Virus record (IMG/VR): IMGVR_UViG_3300044591_000806
Span: 1 to 45,934 of that record
DNA: 45,934 nt
From: a virus
Reading direction: 5' to 3' (one strand)
Below the pieces are notes generated by a model. The model was not told the DNA's origin. It made no database searches and saw nothing but the letters and a program-made list of their open reading frames with translations. The position numbers were made by a program, and so were the translations under genes. Positions 11,636 to 31,183 of the stretch are shown in pieces. The stretch's first letter is position 1. Each line of letters begins with the position of its first letter.

Positions 11636-11917
11636 TTACATTCCGTATGGTAGCTGAGTTTCTGGTGGCTCAGGTTTCTTTTTCTTTGGTTCTTCGACGT
11701 TAGTAGGATCTAGCATGCGGTCGTCTTCACCAAGTGGCTTGACTGGTTTTGCTTCTCTGTTTGTAGCAGCAATAATCTTTTCGCTTTTCTTATCTACTTT
11801 TTCTGCGGCACGTGCATTTGATGCGCGTTTTGCCATTGCTGCACCAGCAGTGCTATTGGTTTTCGAACCAATTGTTCTGCCAGAATACTGTTCCATAAAT
11901 TGTTTGTAGGTTTTCAT
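11636..11917 (-). CDS. Small protein with capsid-targeting-like N-terminus, 93 aa
   Basis: Starts MKTYKQFMEQYSGRTIG at 11917, overlapping the NrdB stop (ATGA). The first nine residues, MKTYKQFME, closely resemble the T4 internal-protein capsid targeting peptide (MKTYQEFIAE), though the cleavage triplet here would be FME rather than the canonical L/IxE. The rest is Lys/Ala-rich (AAMAKRASNARAAEKVDKKS) and then Pro-rich. It could be a small packaged basic protein. Its placement within the nucleotide operon is unexpected. Confidence 0.65.
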   Translation of the reverse strand: MKTYKQFMEQYSGRTIGSKTNSTAGAAMAKRASNARAAEKVDKKSEKIIAATNREAKPVKPLGEDDRMLDPTNVEEPKKKKPEPPETQLPYGM

Positions 11918-19839: not shown

Positions 19840-20112
19840 TTATTCCTGATATGGCTCATCAGCCACAACTGGCTCTTCTTTTTGCTTACCATCACCGCTC
19901 AGCGATAGACCACCAAGCAGACCTACGAATGCACCAATTACGGTGTTAAAAGCTGGACCAATAATGGCAAAGATTTGCTGATTGTCAACAACATCATTTG
20001 GCATGAAAATACCAACAAGAAGAGCAAGCACAACTACAACGCAGATAGAAGCGAGTGTGCCTACTGTGACCTTTAGAATCCAGCGAATTAGTTTTTGAGA
20101 ATCTTTATCCAT
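19840..20112 (-). CDS. Small two-span membrane protein, 90 aa
   Basis: Starts MDKDSQKLIRWILK at 20112, one base shared with the preceding stop. Two hydrophobic segments (VTVGTLASICVVVVLALLVGIF and IIGPAFNTVIGAFVGLLGG) flank a short acidic loop, with a charged C-terminal tail. The segment IIGPAFNTVIGAFVGLLGG recurs in small membrane proteins of marine T4-like phages. Topology and size are holin-like, but it is far from the spanin genes' start and the assignment is uncertain. Confidence 0.65.
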   Translation of the reverse strand: MDKDSQKLIRWILKVTVGTLASICVVVVLALLVGIFMPNDVVDNQQIFAIIGPAFNTVIGAFVGLLGGLSLSGDGKQKEEPVVADEPYQE

Positions 20113-22388
20113 TACTTTTTATCCTTTGGTGTGTTTAATTTTTGCATGCCTTTGGCAATCTTCTTGACTCGCATAGCAGCTGGCTTTGAAGACTTGACTT
20201 CACGACCGCCCTCGAATGGAGCTTTTTCTACTTCTTCGTTCTTAGGTTTCTTGCCAGATTTCTTCATAGCAATAGCGATCGCTGCTTGTTGCGCAGGATT
20301 AGTAGCTTCTTCCAACTCTGACATCAGATAGTCATTAGCGGTCTGTAGATAGTCAGTTGCTAGTGTAATCTTTGACTGAACCCACTCTGGCATGTCAGTT
20401 TCTTTGTCAAGAACTTTCATCATTTCTTGGCAGTTGCGGATGATGGTGCGCAGTTGCGACATAGCCATATCACCCTCGTAGCCATACTCGCCTTCGTCTT
20501 GCTTGTCTTTAGCACCGATGGCTTCGCCTAGTGTGCTTTTAGGTTTAGAGTCGCCTTCTGATTTGGGAATTGGTTTCAAATGTTGTTGTGATACAATGTG
20601 ATTCTTTCCATCGTGATGGACAGCCATTCCAGCAGTACGTGTGCCATACACCCTACCAGCTCCACCCAGAACAGATACGGGTTTACCATGTAGCGGATGT
20701 CCTGGCTTGTCAACGATGTGCGTTGCTGCTGGTTTAGGTCGTGGCTTGTCACCGATGGCCACGAGGGCTTCGCCTAGTGTTCTTTTAGGTTTAGGGTATG
20801 AGAGAATTGTCCTGCCCAACGGACCATCGTCTTTATTGTCAGTCGTTGCTGCTGGTTTAGGTGTCGCTGGTTTATGCGTTGCTGGAATTTGTCCGTGCGT
20901 ATCTTTATCGTAAGAAGCCAAACCACCATGACGTCTGCGAACAACCGAGTCCTTTTTTACATGTCCTACTACTTTTCCTGTTGATTTATGCACCACATGA
21001 CCAGTGGATGTTACTACGTGATCTGAAGTAAGTTTTTGTTTTTGCTTGTGACGAAGATTTGCAGAATGATAATGTGTTGGAGATGACTTATTGGCTTCAT
21101 CCAACTCAACTTCTTCTGGCATTTTCATTTTCGCTTTCTGAAAGCCCATCTTGGTTCTTTGTAGAAGCGAAGGATCAGCTGTAGTCAGATTCATCATCTT
21201 GTCAAGCATCGCTAAGATTTCCTGACGAAGTGCTGGATTGGTCAGAGCCTTGTCGCCCATCTTGATTGCGCGCTTCATCTTCATTAGATCGGAAGGATCC
21301 TTAGCCATTGCACGAAGCAACATGTTTTGCTGTTGGTCTTCTGCTTCGTTGAACATAGTTGTGTATGCTTCCCAGAAGTTTTCTAGTTGTTCGTCTAGGT
21401 TGACTGACTCGTACATGTCTTCTCTTTCTGCTCTATTATAAGAAGAAAGAATGTGCTTTGGATGCGCATGTCCTTTTACTACAAACGTACCACCACCTGC
21501 TGGATCATGTACATGATTGATTATGGTATGTGTTGTTTTTCCTTTTGAATCTTTGACATGGTGAACGTGCAATGTCGTTCCTCCATGTGTTTCTAGTTCG
21601 TGGTCTGGTTTGCGGTCAGGAATATCGCCATGTTCTTCTGGATCATGATCGTCCAGATTTCTATCAACGTCTGCGCCACTCTTCGTGGTAATTTCTTGCA
21701 GGTTGACTTCTTCTGCACGATAGTTGCTGATTCTGCCACCAGATACATTTTGTTTGCTTAGACGAGCAGCTGCGCTCTTGACGCCAAGAAGACGCTTGAA
21801 TGCTTTTTTCGATGCATCCTTGCTTCCGCTTTCGCCAGCAAACTTAGCATCGTTGTGTACATCGACAACGGCTTTGCTGACATAATTGCCTAGTGTCTTG
21901 TCGCTGATTTCATCGATCTGCTCGAACGATTCATTAAACATCTTTTCGCCTTCCGTGTGAGGCAGTGGCTTCGCGCCACGTTTTTTTAATTCAGCCTTAA
22001 TATGTGGAAGATGTGGGTCTTCATGGCCACCGCCACCACTGTATCCCATGTTATGGTGATGTAGATACTGAAGATGCTTCGTAGGAACTTTCTTGATGTG
22101 TTCGATATTTTTTTCGATTTTGTCGCCGTGCTTGGCAGCTGTAGCGTGGTCAGCATCAGTAAATGGCTTCATGGCTTCGTCTAGCTCGACTTCTTCAGCA
22201 ACTTTCTTCGCTGTAGCAGTAGCAATCGCCATCTTCTTACCCATGTCCATTCCTGGATTTTCGCGTTCCATGGCTTTTGCGATTTCTTCGCGTTTCTTCA
22301 TCTCAGCGTCGGTCAGTTTCTTCTCACCAAGCATAACTTGCTTGATGATATCGACTAGTGGATCTTTTGTGGTAAATGGGTTCGACAT
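20112..22388 (-). CDS. 758-aa virion-associated protein with eight candidate prohead-protease sites
   Basis: Starts MSNPFTTKDPLVDIIKQV at 22388 after a weak AAGGAAC. Candidate (L/I)xE cleavage sites, most followed by a small residue, occur after residues 71 (LDE/A), 160 (IDE/I), 232 (LQE/I), 333 (LDE/Q), 431 (LDE/A), 540 (LGE/A), 622 (LGE/A) and 694 (LEE/A), often inside the recurring EEVELDEA. Between them lie His-rich pieces (LHHHNMGYSGGGGHEDPH; HVHHVKDSKGKTTHT), a helical DEGEYGYEGDMA block, and a basic C-terminus. It looks like a polyprotein of internal head peptides processed by a T4 gp21-type protease. No enzyme motif recognised. Confidence 0.8.
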   Translation of the reverse strand: MSNPFTTKDPLVDIIKQVMLGEKKLTDAEMKKREEIAKAMERENPGMDMGKKMAIATATAKKVAEEVELDEAMKPFTDADHATAAKHGDKIEKNIEHIKKVPTKHLQYLHHHNMGYSGGGGHEDPHLPHIKAELKKRGAKPLPHTEGEKMFNESFEQIDEISDKTLGNYVSKAVVDVHNDAKFAGESGSKDASKKAFKRLLGVKSAAARLSKQNVSGGRISNYRAEEVNLQEITTKSGADVDRNLDDHDPEEHGDIPDRKPDHELETHGGTTLHVHHVKDSKGKTTHTIINHVHDPAGGGTFVVKGHAHPKHILSSYNRAEREDMYESVNLDEQLENFWEAYTTMFNEAEDQQQNMLLRAMAKDPSDLMKMKRAIKMGDKALTNPALRQEILAMLDKMMNLTTADPSLLQRTKMGFQKAKMKMPEEVELDEANKSSPTHYHSANLRHKQKQKLTSDHVVTSTGHVVHKSTGKVVGHVKKDSVVRRRHGGLASYDKDTHGQIPATHKPATPKPAATTDNKDDGPLGRTILSYPKPKRTLGEALVAIGDKPRPKPAATHIVDKPGHPLHGKPVSVLGGAGRVYGTRTAGMAVHHDGKNHIVSQQHLKPIPKSEGDSKPKSTLGEAIGAKDKQDEGEYGYEGDMAMSQLRTIIRNCQEMMKVLDKETDMPEWVQSKITLATDYLQTANDYLMSELEEATNPAQQAAIAIAMKKSGKKPKNEEVEKAPFEGGREVKSSKPAAMRVKKIAKGMQKLNTPKDKK

Positions 22389-22397
22389 AATGGTTCC

Positions 22398-22916
22398 TTA
22401 TTTGTTTCTACGAGATTTGGTCCAAGAACCAAAGTCATATTTTTCGTTGATGTCAGCAATACGTTGGTTTACTTCTTCACGGACACCAACTCCAGAAGCG
22501 ATAGAGCGAAGCATCCAAGCGTGTTTTTCGTGAGCGTCGATTCTACCACCTAAGAAATCGTTCATGCCGTATTTCTTTACAGCGTTTGACTCGTCGAACG
22601 CGCGAGTCAGGAGATTAATCATTTCAGCGTTGCTTTGATACAAATCCATAATCATATCAACTGGAGTTGTAGCAGTTCCATCGGCAATAGTTCTTAGTGC
22701 AACGAACTCACTCAGACCAGCTGGAGCGTCGATACCCAGAGTGCGAATTTCTTCAGCAGTAGGATCGATTGCGCCTTCAAAATCTTCGTATAATTCACCA
22801 AAGAACTCATGTAGTTGTGGGAAGAACATGCCTTTAACATTCCAGTGATAGCCCTGCGCTTTGTACTTCAAAACGACAGTATTGGCTAGGATGGTTTTCA
22901 TTGTATCTTGTAACAT
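22398..22916 (-). CDS. Dps-family ferritin-like protein
   Basis: Starts MLQDTMKTILANTVV at 22916 after GGAGATTAATCT. Helix A/B carry the Dps ferroxidase set with exact spacing: His24 and His36 (12 apart), Asp51 and Glu55, within YHWNVKGMFFPQLHEFF and GAIDPTAEEI. Length 172 matches Dps (about 150-180). Dps dodecamers oxidise and store iron and can bind DNA, protecting it from oxidation. It lies between two capsid-tagged genes with a late-type promoter motif upstream, suggesting expression late and possibly virion association, although it lacks the targeting peptide. Confidence 0.85.
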   Translation of the reverse strand: MLQDTMKTILANTVVLKYKAQGYHWNVKGMFFPQLHEFFGELYEDFEGAIDPTAEEIRTLGIDAPAGLSEFVALRTIADGTATTPVDMIMDLYQSNAEMINLLTRAFDESNAVKKYGMNDFLGGRIDAHEKHAWMLRSIASGVGVREEVNQRIADINEKYDFGSWTKSRRNK

Positions 22917-22947: not shown

Positions 22948-24072
22948 TTATGCTTCGACCTTAGCTGAAGCTCTCCATTGCCTACAACTCCAGTATCTCG
23001 GAGTCGTTCTATCAGTTGCAGTGTCGCAGTTGTGACGTGCGCGGAAGTTCTTTCTGCGAGCAGGATCGTCGCGTTTGATTTCCATGTTAGGATCGCCGAA
23101 GCCAACCTTTACTACATTTCCTTTTTCATTCCTTACAAACACCTTGAACTTCTTTTTGCCGTCACCAGCGCGCATCACTTTACCTAGTGGCTTGTTCTCG
23201 TTTTCTTCTTCTCTGACTAATCCACCACTAGTACCAATATTGCCAGCTGGCGGAGGAACTACGTTCTTGCCAGCTGTTGGTGATGTTTCTTTGATAGTCT
23301 TACCATTCATCTCTACGCTGTCGCCCATGTAGCGTTTTCCGCCATGGCTATCTGGATAGTAAGGCATTCCACCGCCAGTTTTTGGTTTGGTCGCAGGAGT
23401 TGGCTTGCTTGGTTCAGCATCTTTGTGGTCAGCTGGTGGCTTCGAGAAATCGTTCTTGACTTTCTCAAGAGCAGCTCTTAATCGCGCATTTCTGTCGGTT
23501 TCTTCAGGAACACAGTTAGGAACCATCTTGTCGCCTTTCTTTTTCATGCCGACTCTTTTGTATCCAGTCCAGCATGCTTCGCCAAACATCTTACGAGCTT
23601 TGATGGTGTGCTTTGATTCTTTGGTCTTTGCGGTTGCGTCGCCAGGAGCTGGTTCATAGGCAGCAGGATCTTTGTCAGAAAGTTTGTCCATCTTTTCCCA
23701 ATGTGCTGCGCGTGCTTTTGCGGTAGATGGCGAAAGACCAGACACATACTTCTTAGGCAGACCTGACTCTTTGTCCTTTGCGACTTCTTCTAGTTCCTCT
23801 TCGCGCAGATCTTTATCAGCACCATGATAAGTTCCCTTACCCTTAGTGATGTAGGAGTTGACGCGAGCCATGCCCCACTGTTGCGGAGTTGTTCCTGGAC
23901 GGTGACCTGAGTTCCACGCAGCAACGCCACGCTTGTAAACTTTGCGTAGAGTTGATAGTGGCATGCCAGACTTGTCAGCTTTCGCTGCTAGACCTGAGTC
24001 AGATTCTTCCATCTCGCTACGTTTTTCGCAAGCAGAGCAACAAGCTTCGTATAGTTCTTTGAATGTCTTCAT
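22948..24072 (-). CDS. Mosaic virion-associated protein with capsid-targeting peptide
   Basis: 374 residues. The N-terminus MKTFKELYE/A (cut after Glu9) matches the T4 internal-protein targeting peptide. Residues about 27-80 form a DUF5824-type module (SGMPLSTLRKVYKRGVAAWN, TTPQQWGMARVNSYI). A middle Ser-Pro-Ser-Thr-Ala-Lys-Ala-Arg motif is followed by an ACWTGYKRVGMKKKGDKMVP-N-C-V-P segment, and the C-terminal about 80 residues (KPLGKVMRAGDGKKKFKVF; VKVGFGDPNMEIKRD; RHNCDTA) form a Cys-containing basic module, all recurrent in phage structural mosaics. Further LxE/IxE sites occur after residues 96 and 262. Probably an internal head protein. Confidence 0.78.
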   Translation of the reverse strand: MKTFKELYEACCSACEKRSEMEESDSGLAAKADKSGMPLSTLRKVYKRGVAAWNSGHRPGTTPQQWGMARVNSYITKGKGTYHGADKDLREEELEEVAKDKESGLPKKYVSGLSPSTAKARAAHWEKMDKLSDKDPAAYEPAPGDATAKTKESKHTIKARKMFGEACWTGYKRVGMKKKGDKMVPNCVPEETDRNARLRAALEKVKNDFSKPPADHKDAEPSKPTPATKPKTGGGMPYYPDSHGGKRYMGDSVEMNGKTIKETSPTAGKNVVPPPAGNIGTSGGLVREEENENKPLGKVMRAGDGKKKFKVFVRNEKGNVVKVGFGDPNMEIKRDDPARRKNFRARHNCDTATDRTTPRYWSCRQWRASAKVEA

Positions 24073-27000
24073 TTCTTTTTCTCAGGTTGTGTTTTTAGGA
24101 AGTCTTTCATTGACATCATTGGACCGATATCTTTTTCTGGTGTTGGATTCTTTAGGAATTCGCCGACGTCTTCTGGATGTTTTAGATCAGATTGTGAGTA
24201 TACTCGGACTTTCTGACCAGATGCATCAAGATACCAAGAGTTCTCATCACCAGTGTATTTCGGTGTAATCTTCTGCTCGTCGACTGGCTCGCCAGCGTGA
24301 ATGTGAGCAAGTTCTTTGCTGTATTTAGCAAACATCTTTTTGGTGGTCGGTGTTGTTCCGACACCAATCTCGTCTGGTATACCAGCTTTTGGCTTATCAA
24401 ATTCATCTGTGTCACCATCAATGTCTAGGTCTTTGCGGTCAACTGCGTGCTTGACTTGATGCATCATTCCTAGATTAGGATTGATCATGTGATGAACGTG
24501 ATACTTATGGCCAGATGCTTTGTGGTGAATCGGCTTCGGATTTACAGTTGGCTGATTACCGACTGCCATGTCAGCGGATTCCATTAGGAAGTCACCGAAG
24601 GATAGGAAGGATTCGTTCTTTTGTTTTTTAGATTTCTTAGGTAATTTAGAAACCTCGCGTGTCATATTATCTTGTCGAGCTTTGGCTTTAGCCCCTTTAT
24701 TTGTTGGACTTGCTTTCTTAGCAGGCTTTGGCTTAACAACAATATGTCTCCACAACATTTTTGTTGATCCTCTTTTCTCCGTTTTAAAGTCAAGCTGAAG
24801 CATTCTTACTGGTTCGTCTCCCTCTGGAGACTCTTCCATGTTTACAACAACTTTAGTTCCGTCAATAGATACTTTGAAATTTCCCTTAGGATTACAGTAG
24901 TAATCAGGTGGTTTGATTTCGGTTTTATTAGTTTTCTTATTAGTTATCAATGTAGCAACGTCATTTCCACAACCATGAACTTTTAACCATATATCTTTCA
25001 ATTGTTCTTGGCCATCTTTAGTTTTTGCTAGATCTGCCATTGATCCACCAAATTCTTTAAGGTAATCTTTTTTCAAGTCTTCTTTACGTCTTTTTACCTC
25101 AGCTTCATCTATGTCATCTGCCCAGTAATTATATTTTGACTTAGATTTCATGTTTTTCAATTTTTCATCTATTTTCTTACCAATTTCTCCGCCGAGCCAA
25201 GTTTCTCCCGCCTTATCTGTACCAGAGTTTTTCATAGTAATGTTGTTTACATTATCGTAAGTCTTGAAAGAAAACTTTTTATTGATTAGATTTCCAGATT
25301 TATCTTTGATAGTAACGATAACATCAGTAGGATCAGTTAATGGAGTTATACCAAGCTCTTTTAGCTTGTTAGGTCCTAGACCACCGACTTGCTGAGAAGA
25401 AACTATTTCAGCTCCTTCATGTAGCAATTGTATGTAATCACGAAGTTCTTTTGCAGCATCTTCGTTTTGTTTTTCAGCAATATCCAGATCTCCACCAGCT
25501 TTAACAAATCTATCGCGCAATTTTTCTGCTGCTTCGGTGTTTTCTGGACTTGGATGTATAAGAGCTGCTATTCCTGCTTCGTGTAGTTTTCCACTTAGGT
25601 CAGCAAGCAATCTGCCAGGATCATCTCCTGGTTCAATCTCTATCCCATATTTTTCGATCAGACGATTTGCTTCTAATGAGAATGTATCTCCTTTATCTGG
25701 AGCCAATTTTTTTCTCAACTCATCATGCACTGTTTCATTTCCTTTCATACCACCTAATACATTGCTATGCACGTAAATCTTTTTACCGCCACTGTGACTG
25801 GATATTAGATTATTCTCTGCTAGATAACGAAGAGCTTCAACTCGATCTTCTTCTGTATCAGCATTAACAAAATCTTTGTAACCCTTAATCATAGAATTAA
25901 ATCTATCTAAATCTGGACCAGAAATAAAACTTGATTTATGTTTTTCTGCAAGATCTTCTAGTTTTTTGTTCATTTTTTTGGTTGTTGTATCTTGTTCGAT
26001 CTCTGCTCCGATTTCTTTTCCACGCTTAATTTTCTGACTAGCTGTTTCAGTACTTTGTTGATCTACGGCTGTTTCAATTTCTTGCGGAGAAAGAGATGCT
26101 CCTCTATCTGGTTGAGCATCAACAGGTTGACTATTTGGTGAATTACTTTGTACACCTGCTGTATAAGTGTTTAGAGCAGACGCTGGACCATCCATTACTT
26201 TTGGCGCTAGGTTTACAGCAGCAGCTGGTTGACCATCACCTTGTGGTGCTTCTCTACCATTAGTAGCTGTTGGCTGCTGCGCTGGTTGTTCGCCACCCAG
26301 TTCTTCTAATTTTTTTGCGGCTGCAGCCTTAACTTTATCAGTCGAACCTCTAGATGCATATTGACCTAACGATAGCTTGTTGTCTGTATCTGCAATTTTG
26401 GCAAGGGCTTCTTCCTCTCCATGAGTTGCAACGTCATCTTGCTCTAACAAATCTCTGTCGGCTGTATGAGCATTGAATCCACCAGCTAAGAATGAATTGA
26501 CACGCGCGAAACCCCACTGTTGTGGAGTTGTATCTTCACGCAAGCCCATGTTCCATGATGCTACACCACGCGCATAGACTTCTTTGATGACCTTGACAGG
26601 AACACCAGTTTCATTCGACTTTCTAATTAGTGATGCTTGTTCGAGCGGAGCTAAAGAATAGTTCTGCTCTGCGATGATGCGCTTCATGATAGTATTGACT
26701 GAGTGAATCAGATTATCACGTGACATGCTTTCTCTTAGTTTCTTTTTCTTTACTGGCGTCGGACTAAGCGAAATAGACTTGAAGCCCTGACCAGATCTAC
26801 GGCGACCTTCAGCTTGACGTAGTTTTGGCTCGATACGTTTTGCTAGACGAGCAATGGCTGTTTTTCTGCGCGCGATCTGACGATCTACTGCTGCGCGCGA
26901 GGAATAAGAAAGATCTTGATACTTTCTACCACGTAGAATGCGTTTGCGCATCATCTTGATTGCTACGCGCTTAGAGCGTCTACTAATTACCTTAGAGGTG

Positions 27001-28106
27001 GCTTTACGAGCAAGAGCGCGTCTTTGGCCAAGGCGAATCTTACCTTTGACACGACGCATTTGTGTGCGACGCTTTAGACGTTGGCTCAATGTAAGAACTG
27101 CTTCGTCTAGATCTTCAGAAAGATATTGTTTTAATTTATCCATCACAAGTTTAGCAGCAGACTTCAAACGAGAAGGCAGACCTGACTTGAACTTGGCTAG
27201 ATCGCCAGCTTTCGCAGCAGCACGCATCTTTGACGCTGACATTCCGCCGACACCTTCTTCGTCTGGGTCGCGCTCGCCAGCGGAAACAACTTCGATTTCT
27301 TCGAACTTATATTCTGAACCGTTGTACTTGTTTGCTAGTGATTTGATATTTGCAAGACGATCGGAACCGACAACGATAATGACCTTATCGTATTTGTCTT
27401 CGAGCATTTTAAGCAAGCCGATAAAGCCAGCAGGATACATACTCTTTGGTGTATCTTGTACGATTCCTGGGAATGCCATCTTGGCTAGTTTTAGTTTATC
27501 GGAATAAGGCAATGGATTCTTATCATCGCCTTCTGTTCTTGACAAGAAAAGACGAGCGTCTGCTTTGTTAGCTTTAGCGACAGCTTGAATTTTATCTACC
27601 AGTTTTTCATGTCCGACTGTTGGCGGATTCATGCGACCGAACGAGAACACAACTGACTTCATCGCAGCTTCTTTGATACCATCAGCGCGGATGATGTATT
27701 GTGGGTTTAGTTCGATAGCATTTGGCGCATCACCAGAAACGGTTTTGCCTTTCTTGAGATTGTTTAGAATATCTTTGCCAGAACCTTTCTTGAAAGGAGC
27801 AATTCTATTAGGCTCGACTTCCTTGGTCTTGGTTTCTTTTTCTTGGGCTTGTGCTTGTTCGCCACCGACCTGAGTTTGAGCAGTGTGTACGCTAGGATCT
27901 TTGGGAGGTTGAACATGAGCAGCTGCATCTTGGTCACCAGAATCACGACGACGCTTTAGTTCTTCTTCAGCTGCATTACGTACGACGAGATCTTCGCTTC
28001 TTGCGAGATTAGCGATAGATTTGCTAGAACTCTTTGGATCTTGAATGAACTTGAGTCTAGCTTGAGTTTCGTCTGCTTCTTTGATTACTTCTATAAAGGA
28101 CTTCAT
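24069..28106 (-). CDS. 1345-aa modular capsid-targeted polyprotein
   Basis: N-terminus MKSFIEVIKE/A is a T4-like targeting peptide. Candidate cleavages follow residues 10, 146 (IKE/A), 335 (LDE/A), 459 (LRE/S), 480 (IAE/Q), 555 (LLE/Q) and 1176 (LME/S). Modules between them: a nucleotidyltransferase (about 151-315; GRMNPPTVGH, SASKMR), a highly basic segment (about 340-455), a DUF5824-type module (about 485-553), an AT-rich unrecognised cargo (about 690-1130), and a His-rich C-terminal domain preceded by its own internal targeting-like SFLSFGDFLMES. The order suggests successive fusions of capsid-targeted genes, giving a payload cut into enzymes and DNA-binding peptides. Start fixed by GGAGATAAG and coupling (ATGA) to the next gene. 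Confidence 0.85.
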   Translation of the reverse strand: MKSFIEVIKEADETQARLKFIQDPKSSSKSIANLARSEDLVVRNAAEEELKRRRDSGDQDAAAHVQPPKDPSVHTAQTQVGGEQAQAQEKETKTKEVEPNRIAPFKKGSGKDILNNLKKGKTVSGDAPNAIELNPQYIIRADGIKEAAMKSVVFSFGRMNPPTVGHEKLVDKIQAVAKANKADARLFLSRTEGDDKNPLPYSDKLKLAKMAFPGIVQDTPKSMYPAGFIGLLKMLEDKYDKVIIVVGSDRLANIKSLANKYNGSEYKFEEIEVVSAGERDPDEEGVGGMSASKMRAAAKAGDLAKFKSGLPSRLKSAAKLVMDKLKQYLSEDLDEAVLTLSQRLKRRTQMRRVKGKIRLGQRRALARKATSKVISRRSKRVAIKMMRKRILRGRKYQDLSYSSRAAVDRQIARRKTAIARLAKRIEPKLRQAEGRRRSGQGFKSISLSPTPVKKKKLRESMSRDNLIHSVNTIMKRIIAEQNYSLAPLEQASLIRKSNETGVPVKVIKEVYARGVASWNMGLREDTTPQQWGFARVNSFLAGGFNAHTADRDLLEQDDVATHGEEEALAKIADTDNKLSLGQYASRGSTDKVKAAAAKKLEELGGEQPAQQPTATNGREAPQGDGQPAAAVNLAPKVMDGPASALNTYTAGVQSNSPNSQPVDAQPDRGASLSPQEIETAVDQQSTETASQKIKRGKEIGAEIEQDTTTKKMNKKLEDLAEKHKSSFISGPDLDRFNSMIKGYKDFVNADTEEDRVEALRYLAENNLISSHSGGKKIYVHSNVLGGMKGNETVHDELRKKLAPDKGDTFSLEANRLIEKYGIEIEPGDDPGRLLADLSGKLHEAGIAALIHPSPENTEAAEKLRDRFVKAGGDLDIAEKQNEDAAKELRDYIQLLHEGAEIVSSQQVGGLGPNKLKELGITPLTDPTDVIVTIKDKSGNLINKKFSFKTYDNVNNITMKNSGTDKAGETWLGGEIGKKIDEKLKNMKSKSKYNYWADDIDEAEVKRRKEDLKKDYLKEFGGSMADLAKTKDGQEQLKDIWLKVHGCGNDVATLITNKKTNKTEIKPPDYYCNPKGNFKVSIDGTKVVVNMEESPEGDEPVRMLQLDFKTEKRGSTKMLWRHIVVKPKPAKKASPTNKGAKAKARQDNMTREVSKLPKKSKKQKNESFLSFGDFLMESADMAVGNQPTVNPKPIHHKASGHKYHVHHMINPNLGMMHQVKHAVDRKDLDIDGDTDEFDKPKAGIPDEIGVGTTPTTKKMFAKYSKELAHIHAGEPVDEQKITPKYTGDENSWYLDASGQKVRVYSQSDLKHPEDVGEFLKNPTPEKDIGPMMSMKDFLKTQPEKKK

Positions 28107-28158: not shown

Positions 28159-28632
28159 TTAATCTTTGTCTTCGAAGTCCAGTTCCTCTGGTGCACCATA
28201 TTCGGTGTCTTCTGGATAATCATCAATATCGTCGACATCAATGTCAGATTCTTCGTCATCATATTCGTCATATACTGCATCTGGTTCGTCGAGTTCTTCG
28301 ATCTCTGACATATCAATTTCGTACCAGTTAATCATACCTGCTTCGTGGAAGTCGCGGATATAATAGTGCTCTTCTAATTCGCCCAACTCGTCTAGGATTT
28401 CTTCAGCTTGTGACGCATACTCATCAAATTTGTCAAGATCTTGGTCTGTAGTTTTACGACCAAGAGTTGTCTTGCGAACAACAGCTAATGCTTTGTCCAA
28501 GTGTTGAGCAGCTTCACGAACTAAACCTAGTTCTTCATCAAACTTACGCGCAGCCAGAGCAGAGAATGCTTCTGATGCAAGTGGCGAGATGTCAAAGTTT
28601 TTAGTTTCGTAGTTGTCGATGATTAGATTCAT
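28159..28632 (-). CDS. Acidic hypothetical protein, 157 aa
   Basis: Starts MNLIIDNYETKNFDISPLA at 28632. The first 100 residues are helical (FSALAARKFDEELGLVREAA; LDKALAVVRKTTLGR; two EELEDELGE-type heptads). The last 45 are almost all Asp/Glu/Tyr (EYDDEESDIDVDDIDDYPED). The acidic tail could mimic DNA or bind a basic partner such as the basic segment in the adjacent 1345-residue protein. That link is inference. No capsid-targeting peptide or LxE start is present. Confidence 0.65.
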   Translation of the reverse strand: MNLIIDNYETKNFDISPLASEAFSALAARKFDEELGLVREAAQHLDKALAVVRKTTLGRKTTDQDLDKFDEYASQAEEILDELGELEEHYYIRDFHEAGMINWYEIDMSEIEELDEPDAVYDEYDDEESDIDVDDIDDYPEDTEYGAPEELDFEDKD

Positions 28633-28959: not shown

Positions 28960-29562
28960 CTATTTAGTGGTTTTATACCTTGAGATGGACCCTGAATGGT
29001 CAACATAAAAGGTCTCAAATTTCATCTCTGGGAACTCAGATTCAAGTTCGTGTAGTGCATCTAGGTTTGATTTGGCGTCGTCAAACAGGCGAACCATTTC
29101 ATACTTACCATCCTTGATTAGTTCTCGGATGACTACCTTTTTGTTTTGGGCTGAGTCAGCGCCACCGACATTACCAGCGCGGTGAACATATACTTTACTT
29201 ATATCGAAGCCATACTTCTTGAATGTATCAAGGAACACGTTCTTGTCGTCTAGATCGCCGCGAGCAGTGACGATGACTATCTTCTTGTTAGCAAATGCGC
29301 TGAATCGCGAGATGATAGACTTGGCTGTCTTAAACACCGTGGCGATCGGCTTGGCTGTTTTCTGAAACACCTCGGCACTGCGAAAGTCAGAGAAGTCAAG
29401 TGACTCTCCGCTCTTTACTTTATACACATTGAACTCAGCAGGAGTCAGCGACTTGATGCGCTTGCCACCCTTTACGATATGGATCTTAGTATCTGTGGTG
29501 AATAGCGTGTCATCAATATCAAATATTGTCAGGCTGGCGGTCTTTGATTCAAACAATCTCAT
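28960..29562 (-). CDS. HAD-superfamily phosphatase, possibly packaged
   Basis: 200 residues. HAD motif I is FDIDDTLF (Asp15, Asp17), motif II is VIVTARG (Thr), and the motif III/IV acidic residues appear in VRLFDDAKSN. HAD phosphatases remove phosphates through an Asp phospho-intermediate; T4 Pnkp uses a related domain for nucleic-acid 3' end repair. The first residues MRLFE/S could be a minimal LxE-cleaved start. It is ATGA-coupled to the Cys-rich gene and, through it, to the KxDG ligase-like gene. Substrate unknown. Confidence 0.8.
   Translation of the reverse strand: MRLFESKTASLTIFDIDDTLFTTDTKIHIVKGGKRIKSLTPAEFNVYKVKSGESLDFSDFRSAEVFQKTAKPIATVFKTAKSIISRFSAFANKKIVIVTARGDLDDKNVFLDTFKKYGFDISKVYVHRAGNVGGADSAQNKKVVIRELIKDGKYEMVRLFDDAKSNLDALHELESEFPEMKFETFYVDHSGSISRYKTTK
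28961..28967 (-). promoter_or_regulatory. Late-type promoter motif CTAAATA
   Basis: CTAAATA overlapping the stop of the HAD gene, 29 bp upstream of the ATG at 28932 and followed by GGTGATGGAGAATTGTT. Consistent with a late promoter that starts the 28932 transcript. Confidence 0.45.
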
Positions 29563-29954
29563 TTAATTGGTCCATTTACTAGCCAAGCGGTGCAAGATCG
29601 ACTGGCAGCACACTTGAAGTGAAACAGATTACAATAACCCAGCTCTGCTAAATCAACAGTCTTCTCACCGTCAACGTGCTTAACATCATTGACAATACCA
29701 GATTCAATACACTTTAACATCTTCGGTGACTCATCAAACGCAGCACAATTTCCACACTTCATAGTTTTGGCAGTAGCTTCGTCAATCTTCCATCGTTTGG
29801 CTGCATCTTTCCAGTAATTTCCTGGCTCGTTAGGATTAGCTGGACCATAATAGTATTCGTCGATTGCATGCTGACGATTTTCTAGGTTTACATGAATATC
29901 CTGTGTAGCAACAGGACAAGATTCTTCAAGTAAGAAAGGAATAAACTTTTTCAT
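29559..29954 (-). CDS. Cys-rich protein with capsid-targeting-like N-terminus
   Basis: Starts MKKFIPFLLEESCPVATQD (29954), an ATG overlapping the upstream stop (ATGA). MKKFIPFLLE/E fits the ten-residue targeting peptide with cleavage at LLE. Six cysteines in two clusters, CGNCAAFDESPKMLKC and YCNLFHFKCAASRSC (about residues 67-121), resemble a metal- or cluster-binding fold; a high-potential iron-sulphur protein is one idea, a zinc ribbon another. The N-terminal half contains a Tyr/Pro-rich loop (YYYGPANPNEPGNYW). Between the ligase-like and HAD genes; role unknown. Confidence 0.7.
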   Translation of the reverse strand: MKKFIPFLLEESCPVATQDIHVNLENRQHAIDEYYYGPANPNEPGNYWKDAAKRWKIDEATAKTMKCGNCAAFDESPKMLKCIESGIVNDVKHVDGEKTVDLAELGYCNLFHFKCAASRSCTAWLVNGPIK

Positions 29955-31183
29955 CTTTGCCAACCTTTTAGTATATCTGGTGAGAAGTTTGCGCGCGAGA
30001 ACTCAAGACGATCTACAATTTTGACTGCGTTCTTGCCAGTATGATCAATAGCAACGTATCCTTCTTGACTTGTAGCCATAAATCCTACAGCTGTTTTTAA
30101 GAATGTACCGATGCCTTCTGCTTTGTTCATTTTAGAAACAATAACAATCTTGGCTTCGACGAGTAGTTTCATCAAGTCAAACACCTTGGCTATTTCCATA
30201 GGATCGTTGTTGCTGAAGAACTTTAATACTCTTTGTTTTCTTTCACGAACTGCTTGCTTACCAGCTTCAGTTTTCTTTGAGTCTTCATCTTTCTGAAACT
30301 TGTCGGTGATGAACTGAACTAGACCACGAACGTGAGATGCGCCATTATCAATAATAGGTTGACCCATTCTAATCTTGCTGTTGTTAAAAGTCTTAGTCAT
30401 AATAAGCAGTTCTTCATCATTAGCAAAGCCATTTAGAATAGCTGGCTTGATAGTTTGAAATAATGTACCAGCCCTAGAAAGAACCTTTGTAACTTCTTCG
30501 GTTTCAGTTTGCGTCATGGTAGCTGTACCAGTCACATCGCGATAAGTCGCGTCATCAAACCAGACATTTTTGCTTGCTTTTAATTTACTTTTAATGTTTT
30601 TACCGAAGCTGGCTTTCATTGTTTCAAAAGAACTGCCAGTATAAGTTGTGTGCCAGACGATTCCCATCTTAGCACTCTGAATCTGTTTTGCTAATTTAGT
30701 TTTGGTAGGAACTGCATAGACGATAGTGTTTGGGTGAAATGTCACACAAGATTCACCGCCAATTTCCTGCGTTCTTAAGTCTGACTGAGTAAACATCAGG
30801 TCACCTTGGATAACACCTTTGATGCCCAACTCAGGTAAATACTTTAGACAGGTTACAAGTTTATCAGCTAGGTCGCCCGATGTATCAGCGCGCACTTCAG
30901 CTGGTGTCTTATAGACTTTAGGATTCTTGTTAAAGATACCTTTCTTGGCTACAAAGAACTTGCCATCACGAGGATCGATGCCAGCAAATACAGCAGGTGC
31001 GCCATCCCACTTCACAGTGGTGTTTACTTTTACATTGCTATTACCAGCAAGCATGTCGCGTAGTGACTGAAGAAAGTTAATTGATTGTCTTGCTCCATCA
31101 ACACCACCGTTTAGAACATTATCTTCAAGATGTTCCATGTGTGTGTTCTTTGCTTCGACGAGATATTTGTTAAATCCAATCAT
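29951..31183 (-). CDS. Ligase/nucleotidyltransferase-fold protein with capsid-targeting N-terminus
   Basis: 410 residues. MIGFNKYLVE/A is a T4-like targeting peptide (cut after Glu10). The core TTVKWDGAPAVFAGID, with Lys58-Trp-Asp-Gly61, matches motif I (KxDG) of covalent nucleotidyltransferases (DNA/RNA ligases), followed by DGKFFVAKKGIFNKNPKVY, and by VIQGDLMF as a possible motif III-IV strand. The family (DUF6267-like as I recall) is common in marine T4-like phages. If active it would join or cap nucleic acid ends. ATGA-coupled to the Cys-rich gene. Confidence 0.78.
   Translation of the reverse strand: MIGFNKYLVEAKNTHMEHLEDNVLNGGVDGARQSINFLQSLRDMLAGNSNVKVNTTVKWDGAPAVFAGIDPRDGKFFVAKKGIFNKNPKVYKTPAEVRADTSGDLADKLVTCLKYLPELGIKGVIQGDLMFTQSDLRTQEIGGESCVTFHPNTIVYAVPTKTKLAKQIQSAKMGIVWHTTYTGSSFETMKASFGKNIKSKLKASKNVWFDDATYRDVTGTATMTQTETEEVTKVLSRAGTLFQTIKPAILNGFANDEELLIMTKTFNNSKIRMGQPIIDNGASHVRGLVQFITDKFQKDEDSKKTEAGKQAVRERKQRVLKFFSNNDPMEIAKVFDLMKLLVEAKIVIVSKMNKAEGIGTFLKTAVGFMATSQEGYVAIDHTGKNAVKIVDRLEFSRANFSPDILKGWQR

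Follow-up and report, generated by a model that had tools for sequence, protein, structure and literature searches.

A modular 758-residue protein of a T4-like phage is a predicted prohead-protease polyprotein

The prohead protease gp21 of phage T4 cleaves after L/I-x-E and converts core proteins into multiple fragments (PMC9026906). Its substrates include the internal proteins IPI, IPII and IPIII and the Alt protein, from which gp21 removes a short propeptide at the N-terminus, the last residues of which are (L/I)xE; these proteins are packed in the head and vary between related phages, and once injected, Ip1-3 block the GmrSD restriction enzymes (PMC12373910). The core proteins gp22, gp67 and gp68 are cut by gp21 into several fragments (PMC9026906). 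Head proteins of the giant phages phiKZ, SPN3US and 201phi2-1 carry propeptides with one or several Glu-ending sites processed by a gp21-like protease (PMC9026906, PMC7411985), the redundant sites removing a propeptide. Many domains in one chain, rapid domain exchange and presumed delivery with the DNA also characterize the polyvalent proteins (Iyer et al. 2017; PMC5512222). No paper dealing with multi-site polyproteins of the head in marine T4-like phages was found in a search that most subscription journals lay outside.

The window, which is the whole 45.9-kb stretch of DNA analysed here, is a fragment of the genome of a T4-like (Kyanoviridae-related) phage. An earlier note on this DNA had placed a 758-residue open reading frame at 20112-22388; the frame is real, has exactly these coordinates and lies on the minus strand (22388..20112). 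We read its product as a modular polyprotein, a substrate of the prohead protease that would yield internal head peptides and whose cassettes are exchanged at the cut sites, and assign this reading a probability of roughly 0.7. An N-terminal propeptide would take the protein into the prohead core, where a gp21-type (Peptidase_S77) prohead protease would cut it behind the Glu of (L/I/V/M)xE, at nine sites at most. About ten pieces would result: the propeptide, 22 residues long, and nine fragments of between 49 and 109 residues. Some fragments would remain with the DNA and, like T4 IPI-III, reach the host cell; others may serve core assembly and then leave the head.

Set beside the described systems, the protein as proposed would resemble IPI-III and Alt in its predicted N-terminal propeptide, its packing in the head and the variability of its class, although these T4 proteins are single products and this chain would give about nine. 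Where the redundant sites of giant phages remove a propeptide, those described here separate distinct modules. Polyvalent proteins have known enzyme domains, often with peptidases of their own, whereas the present modules are 49-109 residues long, mostly unknown, and joined by head-protease motifs. The likeness to gp22, gp67 and gp68 drawn in the earlier note applies to the proposed mode of processing and not further: these families were absent from the Pfam, PHROG and NCBIfam matches, and the modules are diverse and swapped between phages, which puts the protein closer to the internal proteins of T4, themselves variable. The searches made reported no sequence similarity to IPI-III or Alt; the resemblance to T4 internal and core proteins is one of working, not of sequence homology. 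Closest are proteins of S-CREM2 (gp160), P-TIM68, S-SKS1, Cr30 and S-SCSM2R, annotated only as hypothetical, which belong to the same multi-site class, carry common modules and often lie in the same island, with module sets that differ from the one described here. A whole-length homologue was not found in cultured phages, where single segments match different proteins. Profile and structure-database searches returned no Pfam, NCBIfam or PDB match, recognized no enzyme or peptidase domain, and gave a single weak PHROG match of unknown function (phrog_32745, E 7.9e-6); an account of the protein by known domains was dropped on this result.

The nine (L/I)xE sites of the protein end at Glu 22, 71, 160, 232, 333, 431, 540, 622 and 694, successive gaps being 49, 89, 72, 101, 98, 109, 82 and 72 residues. 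The earlier note had counted eight; those from 71 to 694 are real, and the ninth, LGE/KKLT at residue 22 (a slash marks the predicted cut), had been overlooked. The regular spacing that it described was confirmed, with gaps of 49-109 residues more even than random placement would give (CV 0.22, p=1e-4). The bare (L/I)xE count does not exceed chance in residue shuffles (9 versus 6.0 expected, p=0.13) and was rejected as evidence. Longer forms do: (L/I)xEA occurs five times against 0.53 expected (p=1.5e-4) and EEVELDEA twice against zero, bearing in mind that the narrower patterns were picked after the sites had been seen and that their p-values are optimistic. An exact eight-residue repeat never arose in 500 shuffles of the protein, the longest being six residues; TLGEA also occurs twice. 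Three synonymous codons separate the two EEVELDEA copies (GTC/GTT, CTA/TTG and GAC/GAT), which are therefore not a fresh DNA duplication; the KPKxTLGEA copies at 540 and 622 have almost the same DNA sequence and possibly arose by local duplication. When all proteins of the window are compared, an extended motif, defined post hoc, is concentrated here (8 versus 0.36 expected); a 374-aa neighbour shows a smaller excess, and so does a 157-aa protein that is very acidic, a sign that composition affects such counts. This 157-aa protein (28159-28632, minus strand) contains 33% D+E and probably scores through its composition.

Cutting at the nine sites would divide the chain into ten segments, F0 to F9, all on the minus strand. 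F0 (residues 1-22, 22323..22388), MSNPFTTKDPLVDIIKQVMLGE, is the predicted propeptide, with its site at Glu22. F1 (residues 23-71, 22176..22322) is the KKLT module, which ends at ..EEVELDE/A (Glu71) and had no match among cultured phages. The His-rich module F2 (residues 72-160, 21909..22175) ends at FEQIDE/I (Glu160) and is 46% identical to a stretch of a 1079-aa modular protein in another contig (L120). F3 (residues 161-232, 21693..21908), a basic TLxxY module of pI 9.8, ends at EEVNLQE/I (Glu232); modules of this type also occur in phages P-TIM68, Cr30 and S-SKS1. The His-rich, beta-predicted F4 (residues 233-333, 21390..21692) ends at ESVNLDE/Q (Glu333), and the helical F5 (residues 334-431, 21096..21389) at PEEVELDE/A (Glu431). 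F6 (residues 432-540, 20769..21095; KRTLGE/A, Glu540) and F7 (residues 541-622, 20523..20768; KSTLGE/A, Glu622) are both basic and His-rich. F8 (residues 623-694, 20307..20522), an EYxYEGDM module ending at SELEE/A (Glu694), contains the phrog_32745 match and has 102 database matches; it is also matched in phages S-WAM2 and S-H9-1. The chain closes with F9 (residues 695-758 and the stop codon, 20112..20306), a PAQQAAIAIA module that forms a basic C-terminal tail. No relative was found for F4, F6 or F7, and the boundaries of these segments therefore rest mainly on the motif. The expectation of His-rich and basic peptides was borne out, with 9-13% His in the His-rich segments and a pI of about 10 in the basic ones.

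The predicted structure is consistent with a string of separable units. The model consists of small separate folds connected by long low-confidence links, with no overall fold (pTM 0.28). The helices of F1 are confident (pLDDT about 92-94 over residues 31-60), and F5 and F8 are modelled as helical with pLDDT of about 80. Sites 431, 540 and 622 fall in low-confidence stretches and sites 71 and 694 at helix ends; Glu160 lies inside a low-confidence predicted helix, which counts against our reading.

An N-terminal targeting peptide had been thought to be absent, probably wrongly. Residues 1-22 end in LGE/KKLT at the same place where a relative, L016, has the T4-like targeting peptide MKTFKELFE/KKLT. 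Three N-terminal contexts of the KKLT module can be compared: MKTFKELFE/KKLTPAE in L016, MKKFNQIRLDLVE/KTLTPAE in L011, and F0 in the window. F0 is longer than the L016 capsid-targeting sequence (CTS) and lacks an MKTF-type sequence; it is 64% identical in the ortholog described below. We predict that F0 is a propeptide standing where a capsid-targeting sequence would be.

Module exchange among relatives bears on what the motif does. Proteins of about 300-1280 aa in viral contigs carry common modules in varying order and number. The residue before the KKLT module is Glu in 37/37 distinct contexts and in 18/18 dissimilar ones, and 15 of these 18 have L/I/V/M at P3, against backgrounds of 8.6% for Glu and 17.9% for LIVM; the upstream contexts comprise T4-type targeting peptides as well as quite different internal modules. 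[LIV]xE precedes the TLxxY module in 34/34 distinct contexts, which are alike (four clusters), and Glu directly precedes the PAQQA module in 6/6 dissimilar contexts. In a set of 95 non-redundant modular proteins, the Glu of [LIVM]xE was the exact end point of partial BLAST matches 4.8 times more often than background would predict; the control motifs [LIVM]xK, [LIVM]xD and [LIVM]x[QN] gave 0.5-1.2 in the same test, and [^LIVM]xE gave 1.6. Match starts are less sharp than ends, as expected because the motif itself is common to the matched proteins. This coincidence of module boundaries with the Glu of (L/I)xE favours cleavage sites. A linker or helix cap between domains that repeat, or a spot of recombination at the DNA level, would give the motif no role in proteolysis; common joints would aid the swapping of modules between genes that is seen, yet unrelated modules have the same joint, which is also present at the targeting-peptide site of L016. 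Moreover, the 193 contexts with an [LI]DE junction encode it in 28 different nucleotide spellings, so that selection acts on the peptide, and we consider this explanation very unlikely.

A syntenic 302-aa ortholog in the contig L102 records a change of modules at the predicted sites. Gene order is the same, and identity to the window over the aligned parts is 82% for the Dps-like protein, 93% for the 374-aa protein, 86% for DUF7207 and 84% for the primase; neighbours including a 186-aa protein span 74-93%. The ortholog keeps F0, F1, F5 and F8 (F5 and F8 at 80-84% identity, that of F5 being 80%) and lacks F2-F4, F6-F7 and F9. At the joint of F5 and F8, L102 reads ..MKMPEEVQIGE/AIGAKDKQ where the window reads ..MKMPEEVELDE/[F6,F7]/AIGAKDKQ; the predicted cut positions are precisely where F6-F7 were gained or lost. 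The F1-F5 junction of L102 is less clean, with a short unrelated stretch between the two modules.

A protease of the appropriate kind accompanies these modules in relatives. Of 22 module-bearing records tested, 12 encode Peptidase_S77 (gp21-type), and these are mostly long contigs. No gene of the 45.9-kb window was recognized as gp21 or gp23; the window is a genome fragment, in which a missing protease gene does not show that the virus lacks it, and the protease of this virus is accordingly deduced from its relatives. At the usual maturation place, the gp23 of module-bearing phages reads LFE/AAPAN, MFE/AAPAN, LGE/AAPAN, LTE/AAPGN or LFE/DIPNG, which by analogy with T4 would be the gp23 maturation site. 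Could the (L/I)xE repeats instead dock the protein onto the prohead core or the protease, making it a tether or scaffold that leaves whole or is otherwise cut? The T4 targeting peptide is itself a binding signal that ends in a cut site, and an acidic stretch recurs before the sites (EEVELDE). Against docking stand the module boundaries exactly after Glu, whatever the module, and the same (L/M)xE/A site in the gp23 of these phages, and we judge it unlikely.

Virion proteomes provide a further line of evidence. Table 3 of the S-CREM2 virion study contains gp154 (a cytidylyltransferase), gp155, gp156 and gp160, all from the island described below (PMC10665884). Multi-site as well, the 297-aa S-CREM2 gp160 contains CWxGY and CYHKVKARY modules; it has other modules of the class and none of the nine found here, and its 13% coverage is uninformative on cutting. 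S-CREM2 gp154 (L200 4609-5469) has the targeting-peptide-like start MKNFSSFLTE/A. Two other reports place a cytidylyltransferase in the S-SM1 virion (PMC3037559) and an NMNAT-like protein in that of S-SCSM1 (PMC9602691); a start of the gp154 type would explain cytidylyltransferases in cyanophage virion proteomes. Targeting peptides or cut sites are not given as the reason in the available portions of the S-CREM2, S-SM1 and S-SCSM1 papers. These proteomes support head residence for the modular class, not for the 758-residue protein itself, which would share that location, and they are silent on cutting. Taken together, the invariant boundary Glu, the ortholog junction at a site, gp21 with matching gp23 sites and a related virion protein lend good support to gp21-like multi-site processing; of the earlier proposal of about nine peptides, this part stands as a prediction.

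The detection of a modular protein of this class in mature S-CREM2 virions also speaks against a core or scaffold protein like T4 gp22, gp67 and gp68, the pieces of which exit the head to make room for DNA. Many sites per chain are found in T4 core proteins too (PMC9026906), and this account includes the cleavage step of our main explanation, so that the confidences in the two overlap. The modules are, however, diverse, exchangeable and often basic or His-rich, and we regard a purely core function as a serious but doubtful alternative. An uncut multidomain effector, injected like the polyvalent proteins known from phages and plasmids, would likewise combine many small domains in one chain (PMC5512222); the lack of any recognized enzyme or peptidase domain and the fit of the joints to the prohead-protease motif leave this highly improbable.

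Returning to the internal-peptide polyprotein, modules turn over quickly, which suggests that some fragments at least have host-facing roles and, by analogy, that a pressure similar to that on T4 Ip1-3 is at work. A wider proposal, which we advance tentatively and would not yet favour, is that cleavable head polyproteins are cassette arrays in T4-like aquatic phages: the cut site would double as the swap boundary, and one gene would load exchangeable small injected proteins, some of them anti-defence, in equal dose. If this is true, a large share of the "hypothetical proteins" of these phages could be read as pre-cut virion peptide sets evolving by module exchange at protease sites. Peptide boundaries could then be predicted from sequence, and candidates for injected proteins could be listed for abundant phages; the T4 precedents, IPI-III, are anti-restriction proteins. 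The long-standing question of what T4-like phages inject could be put to a direct test with cultured phages, Caulobacter phage Cr30 among them.

The gene lies in an island that, on the minus strand from the cytidylyltransferase gene, encodes a 1345-aa CTS-like/cytidylyltransferase protein, a 374-aa CTS-like protein, a Dps-like protein and the 758-residue protein, followed by several small genes, DUF7207, primase, nrdA and nrdB. The same island is present in Synechococcus phage S-CREM2, and partly in Cr30, S-SKS1, HTVC008M and Melnitz. The 1345-aa protein (24069..28106, minus strand) has the CTS-like start MKSFIEVIKE/A, a cytidylyltransferase domain (phrog_3041, E 4e-80) and DUF5824, with 21 LxE against 12.1 expected (p=0.008). 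The 374-aa protein (22948..24072, minus strand) starts MKTFKELYE/A and combines DUF5824 (PF19141, E 5e-20) with a CWxGY module; it has four LxE against 1.3 expected (p=0.03). The 172-aa Dps/ferritin-like protein (22398..22916, minus strand; PF00210, E 7e-21) is encoded directly upstream of the 758-residue protein in transcription order, in the same position as in L102, and no targeting peptide was seen in it.

Targeting-peptide-like starts were also noticed elsewhere on the minus strand of the window: MIGFNKYLVE/A in a DUF6267 protein (29951-31183), MKKFIPFLLE/E, following an upstream start (29559-29963), and MKTYKQFME/Q (11636-11917). The Cr30 protein of the modular class is a 682-aa hypothetical protein (L195:6762-8810) that starts MRSKILAE/ISKKTLANY; since the host of Cr30 is a laboratory organism, this protein would be well suited to tests. 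In L102, a 105-aa protein (782-1096) starts MKTFKQFMSE/GPMSP and has a phospholipase A2-like domain just under the cut-off (PF08398, E 8e-5), making it a candidate head-packed lipase.
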